IMG/VR virus record: IMGVR_UViG_3300021091_004087
Location: 1 to 20,486 of that record
Length of the DNA: 20,486 bases
Reading direction: 5' to 3' (one strand)
Source of the DNA: a virus
Positions 2,429-17,206 of the stretch are shown here, piece after piece; within the stretch, counting starts at the first letter, position 1; each line of letters starts with the position of its first letter. The notes beneath the pieces are model-generated. The model was not told where the DNA came from, made no database searches, and saw only the letters and a list, made by a program, of their open reading frames with translations. The translations under genes and the position numbers were made by a program.

Positions 2429-2457
2429 TTGACAGAAGAAGTAAAAAGTATTATAAT
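2429..2457 (+). promoter_or_regulatory. Consensus early promoter before tRNA-Pro remnant
   Basis: TTGACA (2429-2434) and TATAAT (2452-2457) are separated by 17 bp, a perfect sigma70 arrangement. Transcription would start near 2464, only about four bases before the tRNA-Pro-like sequence at 2468, as expected for a promoter built for a tRNA gene. Confidence 0.85.
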
Positions 2458-2467
2458 TAATAACTAA

Positions 2468-2484
2468 CGGGGTGTAGCGCAGTT
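2468..2484 (+). pseudogene. 5' remnant of a tRNA-Pro gene
   Basis: CGGGGTGTAGCGCAGTT matches the first 17 bases of the complete tRNA-Pro downstream (2887-2903) at 14 of 17 positions; the three differences are all in the acceptor stem. CGGGGTG is also the usual bacterial tRNA-Pro acceptor strand. The sequence then breaks off in the D arm, and the HNH promoter element begins. This looks like the 5' end of a former tRNA gene displaced by insertion of the HNH gene. Confidence 0.65.
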
Positions 2485-2487
2485 TTT

Positions 2488-2522
2488 TATAAATATTTGG
2501 GAATACAAATTGTAGTCCCAAA
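2488..2522 (+). promoter_or_regulatory. Late promoter with start-blocking hairpin (HNH 1)
   Basis: An exact TATAAATA occupies 2488-2495. It is followed at once by a hairpin: TTTGGGA (2496-2502) with TCCCAAA (2516-2522), one A/G mismatch, then TACA/TGTA around a 3-nt loop. The right arm reaches the A of the start codon. RNA from the upstream early promoter should fold this stem, while late RNA starting near 2501-2502 would lack most of the left arm. No clear Shine-Dalgarno sequence is visible. Confidence 0.7.
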
Positions 2523-2896
2523 TGAAAACAAGAATTTGTAAAACATGTGGAAACGAAAAATCTCTTGACTTGTCAAAATTTCCATCTGCTGGTATAATAA
2601 AAGGAGTTCAATATTACAGGCACAATTGTATTCCTTGTTACTCTAAACAAAAACTTGAGGAGGGTTCTTTAAGAATGCAAAAGTTTAGAGAATATAAAAA
2701 AACTTTATCATGCAATAGATGTGGTTATAATGATTATAGAGCACTTGAATTTCATCACCCCAATGATGATAAAGATGATTATGATCCTTGCGTTATAGCA
2801 AGAACAAGGTCTTGGGAAAATGTTATTAAAGAACTAAATAAATGTGAGGTTCTTTGTTCAAATTGTCATCGAATAGAACACTTTGCCGGGCATTAG
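2522..2896 (+). CDS. HNH homing endonuclease (first copy)
   Basis: This 124-aa protein has two zinc-binding CxxC pairs near the N-terminus (Cys6/Cys9, Cys36/Cys39) and an HNH nuclease core: Cys64-x2-Cys67, LEFHHP with His78-His79, and CEVLCSNCHRIEH with Cys112, Cys115 and His116. It is a free-standing homing-endonuclease-type gene, not inside a recognisable intron. Its last codons and TAG stop lie inside the first ten bases of tRNA-Pro, and a broken tRNA-Pro 5' end lies before it, which points to a tRNA gene as the insertion target. Expression is probably restricted to late infection by the promoter-hairpin element upstream. Confidence 0.85.
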   Translation: MKTRICKTCGNEKSLDLSKFPSAGIIKGVQYYRHNCIPCYSKQKLEEGSLRMQKFREYKKTLSCNRCGYNDYRALEFHHPNDDKDDYDPCVIARTRSWENVIKELNKCEVLCSNCHRIEHFAGH

Positions 2897-2960
2897 CGCA
2901 GTTTGGTAGCGCGTTCCGTTTGGGGCGGAAAGGCCAAAGGTTCAAATCCTTTATGCCCGA
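2887..2960 (+). tRNA. tRNA-Pro (anticodon TGG)
   Basis: The acceptor strands CGGGCAT (2887-2893) and ATGCCCG (2953-2959) pair perfectly. The anticodon stem TTCCG/CGGAA holds the loop TTTGGGG with TGG at 2921-2923. The T loop is GGTTCAAATCC. The first ten bases overlap the end of the HNH coding sequence. A small hairpin CCAGT/ACTGG (2964-2979) follows and could mark a processing site. Confidence 0.95.
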
Positions 2961-2984
2961 TTGCCAGTTTCTTCACTGGTACAC

Positions 2985-3013
2985 TTGACATAAAACCTCA
3001 AGTATTCTATAAT
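2985..3013 (+). promoter_or_regulatory. Consensus early promoter
   Basis: TTGACA (2985-2990), a 17-bp spacer and TATAAT (3008-3013) form an exact sigma70-type promoter. The start site would be near 3020, giving a leader of about 17 nt to the gene at 3037. It should also feed early RNA into the second HNH gene. Confidence 0.85.
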
Positions 3014-3036
3014 ATCTGAGTAAACAAAACAAACAA

Positions 3037-3252
3037 ATGTCTCTGATTACAAAATTCAAGAAAGATGTTAGCACTCTTCGTCTTGCTGCTAACGGGGAAA
3101 TCTACCTTGATGTAAAGAATCCGAAACTTTATAAAAAGGTCCGTCGCTTTTATGAAAATGAAGGTGTCGTGTTTTCTGGTGACCCCCTTGACGATTATGA
3201 AATTTTGATTGATTATATCGTTCAAGATCTTGAAACCGTTGAGGTTGCCTGA
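3037..3252 (+). CDS. 71-aa hypothetical protein
   Basis: This 71-aa soluble protein (MSLITKFKKDVSTLRLAANG) has a mixed alpha/beta pattern and an acidic C-terminal half. It lies directly behind a consensus early promoter, so early expression is expected. It ends in a TGATG overlap with the next gene, suggesting coupled translation. No domain or named family is recognised. Confidence 0.7.
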   Translation: MSLITKFKKDVSTLRLAANGEIYLDVKNPKLYKKVRRFYENEGVVFSGDPLDDYEILIDYIVQDLETVEVA

Positions 3253-3853: not shown

Positions 3854-4288
3854 ATGGCAACTAGAGAACAAAAGTTAGAAGCAAAAAGACGCTACTATCA
3901 AAAAAATAAAAACAAACTAAATGTAGAATCAAGAGAACTCAACATTAGATTGAGATATGAAAAGAAAAATTTTATCATAGAATCTCTTGGATCTAAATGT
4001 CGTGGGTGTGGGACTACTGATTGTCTAGAAATAGATCATATCAATCCTGGACTAAAAAAAGATAGAAAATGTCTTTATGTTTGTTCTTGGGACAGAATCA
4101 AAAGTGAAATGGATAATCTCCAACTTCTCTGTAGTGCCTGTCACCAAGAAAGATCTCAGTTGCAAAAAGATGCTTCTTGGTTTTATTTTAAAAATCTTCC
4201 TCTAGAAGAGCAAAATAATCTAATGGAGCAATTCAAAAAAAAGGGTTCTACTTTACCTTCTTGGTGCCCGCAAGATAAGGCACAATAA
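3854..4288 (+). CDS. HNH homing endonuclease (second copy)
   Basis: This 144-aa protein has a basic, Lys/Arg-rich N-terminus (about residues 1-40) for DNA contact. The HNH core follows: CRGCG (Cys49, Cys52), LEIDHINPG with the catalytic-type Asp61-His62, an Asn-containing helix (DNLQLLCSACH, Asn88), and Cys93, Cys96 and His97. It is not closely similar to the first HNH protein outside the core, so the two are separate insertions rather than a recent duplication. It appears to interrupt a very small gene. Late-only translation is predicted from its upstream hairpin. Confidence 0.85.
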   Translation: MATREQKLEAKRRYYQKNKNKLNVESRELNIRLRYEKKNFIIESLGSKCRGCGTTDCLEIDHINPGLKKDRKCLYVCSWDRIKSEMDNLQLLCSACHQERSQLQKDASWFYFKNLPLEEQNNLMEQFKKKGSTLPSWCPQDKAQ

Positions 4289-6737: not shown

Positions 6738-7617
6738 AATTCTTAATGGTCAGGGGATTGGGAATCAATTATTTTGTTATGTAACTACAAGATCTATTGC
6801 CCATGATAGAGGACTGGAATTTGGTATTAAAGATACCGGATGGAGTGGGGATAAAAGATATAATCAAAGTGGATTTTATTGGTTTGATTTGGATATGGGA
6901 ATTCAAGTTCAAGATAATATGAAAATTTATTATGAAAAAGATAAAAGATTAAAATTAGAAACCTGTTGGCATGATATGGCACATGGTTGTGATATTAGAA
7001 AATATGATCCAGATCTTGTTAATATTCCTGATAATACAATGATTTTTGGAAATATGCAAGACGAAAAATATTTCATTCATAACAAAAGTCTTGTTAAAGA
7101 ATGGTTAAAAGTTAAACCAGAATATGATACTTATGATTATTATGATGATAATATTTGTATTTTAAATTTTAGAGGCGGAGAATATGTAGGATTTGGTGAG
7201 TTATATTTGACAAGAAAGTATTGGATTGATGCAATGAATAATATGACTAAAATCAATCCAAATATGGAATTTGTAGTAATTACTGATGATATAAAAGCAT
7301 CACAAGATATGCTTCCAGAAATTCCAGCATATCACTTTACTGTAGATAAAGATTATGCTATAATTAAAAATTCTAAACATGTAATCTTATCAAATTCTAG
7401 TTTTCCATTTTTTGCTGTTTTTACTAGTGATACTATTAAGAATATTATTGCGCCTAAGTATTGGTCAAGACATAATGTTTCTAATGGTTATTGGTCAATG
7501 GCACAAAATATGTATCATGGATGGACCTATCAAGATAGGGAAGGAAATCTTCAAACCTATGATGAGTGCTTAAAGGAATTTGAAGACTATTCAGTTCAAA
7601 ACAATCTTTATGTATAA
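6724..7617 (+). CDS. Divergent GT11-like (fucosyltransferase-like) protein
   Basis: This 297-aa protein has the GT11 N-terminal signature GQGIGNQLFCYVTTRS (residues 9-24) and a C-terminal LSNSSFPFFAVF that matches the NSTFSWWGAWL region of alpha-1,2-fucosyltransferases. The usual donor-binding HxRRxD is replaced by NFRGGEY (Arg150), so its donor may not be GDP-fucose. It overlaps the GT17 gene by 14 nt. A second, canonical GT11 lies at 13220. Confidence 0.65.
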   Translation: MLATEILNGQGIGNQLFCYVTTRSIAHDRGLEFGIKDTGWSGDKRYNQSGFYWFDLDMGIQVQDNMKIYYEKDKRLKLETCWHDMAHGCDIRKYDPDLVNIPDNTMIFGNMQDEKYFIHNKSLVKEWLKVKPEYDTYDYYDDNICILNFRGGEYVGFGELYLTRKYWIDAMNNMTKINPNMEFVVITDDIKASQDMLPEIPAYHFTVDKDYAIIKNSKHVILSNSSFPFFAVFTSDTIKNIIAPKYWSRHNVSNGYWSMAQNMYHGWTYQDREGNLQTYDECLKEFEDYSVQNNLYV

Positions 7618-16440: not shown

Positions 16441-16650
16441 ATGACTGTTACCAAAAATGAGTTCGGGCAAATGAATATGTTTGCTAAAGAACCATCGATG
16501 TATATGACCAAGGAAGACCTTGAGCGTTACGGCATCGAACCTTATGCTGAGAAAGCGGAGCGTTTAAACGGACGTACTGCGATGATGGGATTTTTGGCAG
16601 CAATTATTTCATATGCATTGACAGGAAAACTTTTCTTCGGCATTATTTGA
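16441..16650 (+). CDS. hli: High-light-inducible protein
   Basis: This 69-aa protein has a polar N-terminal extension and a single membrane helix with the chlorophyll-binding signature AEKAERLNGRTAMMGF (residues 36-51; Glu40, Asn43, Arg45), followed by AAIISYALTGKLFFG. Hlips bind chlorophyll and carotenoid near photosystem II assembly intermediates and protect against excess light. Phage copies are thought to keep host photosynthesis running during infection. It has its own consensus early promoter. Confidence 0.95.
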   Translation: MTVTKNEFGQMNMFAKEPSMYMTKEDLERYGIEPYAEKAERLNGRTAMMGFLAAIISYALTGKLFFGII

Positions 16651-16657
16651 GTTTTTA

Positions 16658-16712
16658 ATTTCATATACCATACATTATAAATAATATAAAATATATGTGT
16701 GGTATATGAAAT
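16658..16712 (+). promoter_or_regulatory. Late promoter in loop of start-hiding hairpin (HNH 3)
   Basis: The arms 16658-16675 (ATTTCATATACCATACAT) and 16695-16712 (ATGTGTGGTATATGAAAT) pair over 18 bp with one T-G wobble. The 19-nt loop (16676-16694) starts with an exact TATAAATA late promoter (16676-16683). The right arm contains the start codon ATG 16706. RNA from the hli early promoter should sequester the start; late RNA from about 16689-16690 contains only the right arm. Confidence 0.8.
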
Positions 16713-17206
16713 CTCTTTACAACATCGGTGATAAAATACACCGACTTACTATCAAAGGAAAAACAGTTTGCACTACTCCAAGTGGAAGAAATCGTTCTCA
16801 TTATATTTGTGAATGTGAGTGTGGAAATGAAGTGAAGGTTGAGGGATATAACCTCAATAATGGTCGTTATAAATCCTGTGGATGTAAAAGAGCATCTGCT
16901 GGTGGAATATCAAACACAAAAAAATATAGAATGTGGAAATCTGCACAAGAGCGTGCTATTAAAAAAGGATTAGAATTTTCTATACGAGTGGAAGATATTA
17001 AAATACCAAAAACTTGCCCTTTATTGAACATAACACTTATTGAAGGTGATAGAGAATGTACTCCTTCACTTGATAGAATTGATAGTAAAAAAGGATATAC
17101 TCCAGACAATGTGTGGGTTATATCTCATAGAGCAAACCAAATAAAAAATGATGCTACACTTGAAGAATTAAAACTTATAACAGAAAACCTATCAAAAATA
17201 ACTTGA
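16706..17206 (+). CDS. HNH-like homing endonuclease (third copy)
   Basis: This protein is 166 aa from ATG 16706; a GTG at 16697 would add three residues. The N-terminal zinc module is YICECECGNEVKVEGYNLN (Cys35, Cys37, Cys39) with SCGC (Cys58, Cys60), a pattern common in phage homing proteins. The nuclease-like part is SLDRIDSKKGYTPDNVWVIS with Asp123 and Asp126, Asn135, then HRANQIKND (His141, Asn144, Lys147); the usual DHID is DRID here. It lies between hli and the ferredoxin genes without obvious intron sequence, so it is likely free-standing. Confidence 0.75.
   Translation: MKSLYNIGDKIHRLTIKGKTVCTTPSGRNRSHYICECECGNEVKVEGYNLNNGRYKSCGCKRASAGGISNTKKYRMWKSAQERAIKKGLEFSIRVEDIKIPKTCPLLNITLIEGDRECTPSLDRIDSKKGYTPDNVWVISHRANQIKNDATLEELKLITENLSKIT

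Follow-up and report, generated by a model that had tools for sequence, protein, structure and literature searches.

Endonuclease genes associated with tRNA genes have been described in phages T4/T6 and T5. SegB of T4/T6 is a free-standing gene which sits in a tRNA cluster with a predicted late promoter and a hairpin before the gene (PMC2988022), cuts within tRNA genes and promotes inheritance of the tRNA region (PMC13096335, PMC2988022). The same review also describes late promoters for I-TevI, SegB and Aeh1 MobE, with a hairpin that hides the translation start in early read-through RNA only (PMC2988022), and autorepression of I-TevI through an operator that lies across its late promoter and resembles the homing site (PMC2988022). 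In phage T5, F-TflI (encoded by hegC) and F-TflII (hegD) are free-standing HNH genes in the tRNA region; the test applied here to the window places the stop codon of each within the 5' end of the tRNA gene that follows, at +11 in tRNA-Ser(GGA) for F-TflI and at +20 in tRNA-Gln(CUG) for F-TflII.

The locus described here lies in a window of 20,486 nucleotides, the whole stretch analysed (positions 1 to 20,486 of IMG/VR virus record IMGVR_UViG_3300021091_004087). The system appears to be of a kind already known, the free-standing genes for homing endonucleases that lie in the tRNA regions of phages. With reasonable rather than high confidence, it can be read as a free-standing, homing-type HNH cassette of T4-like cyanophages that would be expressed late, target tRNA-Pro(UGG) and travel with its own allele of this tRNA. 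The window's gene shares with SegB a position at tRNA genes, a predicted late promoter and a hairpin. However, SegB has a GIY-YIG fold, the available part of its description mentions no stop-codon overlap with a tRNA, and cleavage by the window's protein is putative. The T5 genes share the overlap with the next tRNA but belong to another HNH subfamily by sequence, and the 70 nt upstream of them carry neither TATAAATA nor an anticodon-like inverted repeat, both of which precede the gene in the window. A close counterpart in an isolated cyanophage is the S-CAM3 'putative endonuclease' AOV59190, which has the same leader, HNH family and tRNA-Pro overlap, although with 47% protein identity, a CGGGGCG tRNA-Pro allele and no remnant of an older tRNA. 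Synechococcus phage S-SRM01 has the same downstream gene and flank and one tRNA-Pro, but no HNH gene; its tRNA-Pro is of the CGGAGTA type and starts about 9 nt after the preceding gene.

In the window, a 2OG-Fe(II) oxygenase gene (1856-2419) stands between conserved upstream genes and the tRNA-Pro, and the features from 2429 to 3036 all lie on the plus strand. A sigma-70-type promoter, TTGACA-17-TATAAT (2429-2457), matches the consensus at 12 of 12 positions and is followed by 18 nt (2468-2485) that correspond exactly to the 5' end of a tRNA-Pro with the CGGGGTG acceptor allele; both are assigned to a tRNA-Pro that was replaced. The left part of the cassette holds TATAAATA (2488-2495), a T4-type late promoter -10 element conserved in the Pro family, and an inverted repeat, TTTGGGA-N13-TCCCAAA (2496-2522), whose arms correspond to the anticodon loop of tRNA-Pro(UGG). 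The HNH endonuclease gene (2522-2896, 124 aa, zinc-knuckle/HNH type) runs into a complete tRNA-Pro(UGG) of the CGGGCAT allele (2887-2960, identified with ARAGORN), the anticodon loop of which is TTTGGGG (2919-2925). The HNH gene does not supply its own stop codon: it reads into the tRNA, where the conserved T8-A9-R10 provides one, and its TAG (2894-2896) is formed by tRNA positions 8-10, where acceptor stem and D arm meet, in agreement with the stop that the sequence-only reading had placed in this region. It follows from the overlap that maturation of the tRNA by RNase P should strip the message of the HNH stop codon. Downstream, the resident right flank (2961-3036) consists of the hairpin TTGCCAGTTTCTTCACTGG and the promoter of the next gene (TTGACA-17-TATAAT, 2985-3013, a consensus match), and the gene that follows, here called dn71, occupies 3037-3252. 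Flank comparison places the same right flank 3' of HNH-free tRNA-Pro genes in S-SRM01 and in many IMG/VR loci. An assembly artefact is unlikely because a second IMG/VR contig (L001) has the identical arrangement, with proteins 100% identical to those of the window.

Assignment of the protein rests on a match to the PHROG 2255 HNH endonuclease profile (phrog_2255; residues 2-122, E 5e-26) and on conserved residues; an AlphaFold2 model has a pLDDT of 87. Eight positions expected to be zinc ligands and HNH residues (C64, C67, H78, H79, C112, N114, C115 and H116) are invariant in 15 sequences. The protein has no Pfam match above thresholds, a sequence search for a remote homologue of solved structure returned none, and comparison of the model by Foldseek, with a beta-beta-alpha-metal fold in view, gave weak matches only, including Hpy99I and Cap5. 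A scan of bacterial and archaeal genomes yielded 20 distant relatives.

The architecture recurs across a family of phage genes. A protein search recovered five IMG/VR loci (L001-L005, 59-100% identity at the best segment), in all of which the HNH gene has the same leader and terminates within the start of a tRNA-Pro(UGG) gene; since these loci were found by protein search alone, they count in favour of the reading as an HNH-tRNA cassette. A scan with the leader pattern gave 34 matches, 31 of them leaders of genes of this HNH family, and wherever such a locus reaches the 3' end of the HNH gene, the gene abuts or runs into tRNA-Pro(UGG). The stop is taken from tRNA positions 8-10 in one frame and from positions 13-15 in another, and in L032 and L323 the HNH gene stops just upstream of the tRNA. 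At least seven acceptor sequences follow the HNH genes of the Pro family (CGGGCAT, CGGGGTG, CGGGGCG, CGGGGCT, CGGAGTA, CGGAACG and CGGAATG). The HNH gene and the CGGGCAT tRNA are found together again in L002, L003, L037 and L039, and the tRNA behind the HNH relatives in L002, L003 and L037 is nearly identical to that of the window; this recurrence indicates that an HNH-tRNA unit replaced the old tRNA. In L028, an HNH gene about 74% identical to that of the window precedes a CGGAGTA tRNA. Linkage between HNH clades and tRNA alleles is thus loose rather than strict, and the two therefore appear to recombine apart at times.

Loci without the HNH gene show what the site looks like when empty. A search with dn71 gave 80 loci, 77 of which have a tRNA-Pro in front of that gene, and HNH-free relatives carry a single tRNA-Pro, often of the remnant (CGGGGTG) type. 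In four of them (L101, L114, L050 and L084) an intact tRNA-Pro lies directly behind a TTGACA...TATAAT promoter, and none of the compared loci has a tandem pair of tRNA-Pro genes at the site. The sequence-only reading had suggested asking whether relatives lacking the HNH gene have one CGGGGTG-type tRNA-Pro behind this promoter, and had named a tandem arrangement as evidence against itself; on these points the comparison is mostly in its favour. Empty and occupied loci with closely similar upstream flanks can be paired (L114/L041, L101/L011, L203/L036 and L224/L042), i.e. the cassette is present or absent at an allelic site, as in free-standing homing endonuclease genes. In L041 and L114 the sequences part inside the -10 box, where agtagtATAA is followed by ATATTTGGG in the former and by TTACTTCTG...CGGGGTG in the latter. 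An isogenic empty site with the 2OG gene, the promoter and a CGGGGTG tRNA was sought by way of the 2OG gene and was not found; the search returned L237 and L238, the nearest relatives with the same 2OG gene (91% identical), which have no tRNA-Pro at the site. HNH-free relatives of this sort had also been named in advance as contrary evidence, and they do exist, although the rule that a tRNA-Pro stands at this site holds in the great majority of loci. Because 77 dn71 loci carry the tRNA, a loss specific to the L237/L238 lineage appears to be the simpler reading.

The 18-nt remnant, CGGGGTGTAGCGCAGTTT (2468-2485), is exactly the first 18 nt of a common tRNA-Pro, of which a 20-mer, CGGGGTGTAGCGCAGTTTGG, is present in 111 IMG/VR stretches. 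Within 3 mismatches its sole other match in the window is the 5' end of the complete tRNA, and a chance origin was rejected, as shuffles of the window gave 0 matches of this type. Since the final T could be part of the T run that comes next, the figure of 17 bases given in the sequence-only reading is a fair one. Remnant and complete tRNA have TAGCGCAGTTT in common; their first 18 bases show 3 differences, each of them in the acceptor stem, where the reading from the letters alone had also placed the differences. Among 113 distinct loci the remnant is limited to the phage of the window (window and L001). A group I intron or a split tRNA is not favoured as an explanation: nothing is missing from the downstream tRNA, and the remnant lacks a 3' counterpart.

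The position of the left junction also sets the window apart. Flush insertion is the rule among the cassettes: in other Pro-family members the left end starts near TATAAATA and carries no D-arm sequence, and the junction precedes the tRNA by between 0 and about 27 nt, falling within a TATAA -10 box in several loci, which makes the D-arm position in the window a one-off. Here the join reads CAGTTT followed by TTTATAAATA, or includes a TTT overlap, and comparison with the borders of other cassettes found no homology beyond approximately this TTT. The earlier proposal that an HNH-tRNA unit recombined in at the D arm is therefore retained as to replacement of the old tRNA by the unit; homologous recombination at the shared D-arm block was rejected, since the left ends of other cassettes have no such sequence. 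For the same reason the junction between TTT and TATAAATA looks like the product of illegitimate repair, the break having probably occurred in the old tRNA beyond its position 18. The right side is read as an exchange within or just after the tRNA-Pro, because the flank beyond 2960 is of the resident type seen in S-SRM01.

These observations suggest a mobile unit composed of the leader (late promoter and inverted repeat), the HNH gene and its own tRNA-Pro. In a co-infection, we infer, the enzyme made late would cut the tRNA-Pro gene of a phage lacking the cassette, and repair off a cassette-bearing genome would copy in the HNH gene together with the tRNA, so that tRNA function would be restored with a different allele. 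Such repair would usually proceed through homologous flanks and leave no trace. In the ancestor of the window, the left end of the break would have kept 18 nt of the old tRNA and been joined to the leader at TTT/TATAAATA with short or no homology; as the first 18 nt were kept, the break would have lain downstream of tRNA position 18. The remnant would then be a rare record of one replacement event, one that puts the break inside the tRNA gene. Several observations speak against the homing model: TTTGGGA is common to the leader and to many of the carried tRNAs, which would have to escape their own enzyme; HNH clades and tRNA alleles are only loosely linked; the closest 2OG-bearing relative lacks a tRNA-Pro at the site; and the match of leader to anticodon, described below, fails in some families.

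The leader itself resembles those of T4-type endonuclease genes. Because TATAAATA conforms to the T4-type late promoter consensus, late transcription of the HNH gene from it would be expected, and in the Pro family the motif is conserved directly 5' of TTTGGGA. Computed as RNA, the leader repeat forms a hairpin that takes in the first bases of the start codon (fold z -3.7), whereas RNAs with their 5' end at 2499 or 2503, close to where late transcription would be expected to begin, leave the start codon unpaired, and in the one from 2503 the leader stem is lost. This computed behaviour fits the T4-type rule in which the start is hidden in read-through RNA and free in late RNA. The leader may also serve autoregulation of the HNH gene, as the operator does for I-TevI; I-TevI is intron-encoded, and the match of the window's leader to its presumed target extends over only about 7 nt, with a repressor function that is putative.

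The left arm of the repeat, TTTGGGA, corresponds to an anticodon loop of tRNA-Pro(UGG), while the window's own tRNA has TTTGGGG, and 28 Pro-family leaders have TTGGGA in this arm. Sister HNH genes located before tRNA-Thr(UGU) carry TTTGTAA or TTGTAA in the leader, which is the loop of tRNA-Thr, so that within one protein family the motif switches with the tRNA, from TTTGGGA with Pro to TTGTAA/TTTGTAA with Thr. Further leader motifs are CTCATAA before tRNA-Met in L086 and ACTTCCAA before tRNA-Gly in L373. Across the whole class the match between leader and anticodon loop gives a permutation p of 0.0002 when tRNAs are shuffled among 27 family/tRNA units, a value to be read in the light of units that are not fully independent and of a leader window picked after the motif had been seen. 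The match is absent in most Asn, several Gly and some Pro families; as a universal rule it was rejected on these grounds. The longer leader consensus is not specific to the anticodon loop, as the D loop matches too. It is a tentative suggestion, and one we hold as rather doubtful, that the leader of each endonuclease copies the anticodon-loop sequence its enzyme recognises and provides an operator, lying over the late promoter, for autoregulation. In that case one could read the target of an uncharacterised phage endonuclease from its leader, a switch of target between tRNAs, such as from Pro to Thr, would need the leader to change in step, and these elements would also drive the wholesale replacement of one tRNA-Pro allele by another at the locus.

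Overlap with tRNA genes extends well beyond the Pro family. In a sample of 517 loci, 110 of 195 HNH ORFs end at most 30 nt from the 5' end of a tRNA and 74 of the 195 end exactly at +7, i.e. with the stop at tRNA position 8, rates that overstate the genome-wide frequency as the sample is enriched for tRNA-Pro, the window's leader and the window's HNH family. The tRNAs concerned are Pro, Met, Asn, Thr, Gly, Cys, Val, Arg, Ser, Tyr, Asp, Ala and Ile. The overlapping HNH genes fall into 16 protein clusters, and most of them have TATAAATA upstream of the start, often inside an inverted repeat. Elsewhere, a putative homing endonuclease of Bas26 ends at +7 in tRNA-Glu, an HNH gene of a Salmonella T5-like phage ends at +7 in tRNA-Ala, and T5.069, GIY-YIG-like by eye, has its stop at +21 in tRNA-Asn; since GIY-YIG-like genes also stop in tRNAs, the overlap is not limited to HNH proteins. 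The class is one of apparently widespread endonuclease genes of phages for which a tRNA gene provides, in its 5' end, the stop codon; its members probably spread by cutting that tRNA gene in rival phages. A literature search found no description of HNH genes ending inside tRNA genes, although the primary paper on the T5 enzymes (Akulenko 2004) may mention the overlap. The class yields concrete target predictions for many unannotated HNH genes, and the isolated phage S-CAM3 carries one of them.

Separately, HNH genes of other families (L013, L015, L028, L030, L032, L060, L086, L097, L155 and L373) were seen to run into tRNA-Gly, Asn, Thr, Met and Ser, sometimes several on one cyanophage contig, and GIY-YIG-like genes (T5orf172-like, by eye) at 7007-7525 in T5 (L523) and 8188-8679 in L524 stop inside tRNA 5' ends.

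The breadth of this class bears on whether the HNH gene is an ordinary gene moved by general recombination, with tRNA clusters acting as permissive hot spots for the insertion of small genes. General mosaicism is common in these phages and the interval before tRNA-Pro also holds non-HNH genes, such as the window's 2OG oxygenase. However, in an earlier subset 56 of 112 HNH ORFs ended inside a tRNA 5' end as against 11 of 2705 other ORFs (those of at least 90 aa), the arrangement is common to 16 HNH protein clusters and many kinds of tRNA, and leader motif and tRNA change together, which leaves this explanation improbable, if still of some weight. The conservation of the overlap across families and tRNA kinds could also be taken to mean that the protein acts on RNA or regulates tRNA-Pro, with translation coupled to RNase P processing, and the overlap necessarily sets 5' maturation of the tRNA against translation of the HNH gene. 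Yet the stop (at +7, +12 or elsewhere) is simply the first one met by an open frame entering the tRNA, so that no selection for coupling is needed, and the T5 enzymes F-TflI and F-TflII, whose genes have the same overlap, are described as site-specific endonucleases (reference 28 in PMC3326045). A role of this kind is very improbable.

The 18-nt piece has an alternative origin of its own, as a partial copy made at the time of insertion (e.g. by template switching of a repair polymerase on another tRNA-Pro) or as what is left of a second tRNA-Pro that had decayed earlier. The failure to recover an isogenic empty site and the lack of any tRNA in 2OG-bearing L237 are in keeping with such an origin. 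Against it, the consensus promoter stands at the expected distance, HNH-free loci have the same order of promoter and tRNA, no locus has two tRNA-Pro genes at the site, and the piece is exact and hence recent; we regard this origin as quite improbable. Replacement of a resident tRNA-Pro by a homing-type HNH-tRNA cassette is the reading preferred over these alternatives.

Exchange of tRNA-Pro alleles is also seen without the HNH gene. Where two HNH-free loci are at least 85% identical upstream (41 pairs), mean identity was 0.69 in the tRNA compared with 0.89 upstream and 0.86 downstream, and the pair L186/L190 has identities of 0.99 upstream, 0.95 downstream and 0.62 in the tRNA. Very different tRNA-Pro alleles at one site between nearly identical flanks were noted among dn71 loci, L186/L190 included. 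The exchange fits two histories equally well: the site may have been converted by an HNH-tRNA unit that later lost its HNH gene, or the changes may reflect escape from cleavage. The homing reading would link the odd and fast-changing tRNA genes of phages, their endonuclease-rich tRNA regions and the way in which such genes spare their tRNA. If cleavage is borne out, gene conversion driven by endonucleases, and not selection on codon usage, would explain some of the turnover of phage tRNAs.

Two further genes of the window were noted in passing. A second HNH gene (3854-4288; Pfam HNH, E 1.5e-6) has TATAAATA in its leader and no tRNA at its 3' end. A third possible HNH-type gene (16645-17206), recognised by eye and with no Pfam match, is likewise not at a tRNA, and its leader contains a long near-palindrome, TTCATATACCATACAT...TATAAATA...ATGTGTGGTATATGAA, around a late-type promoter.
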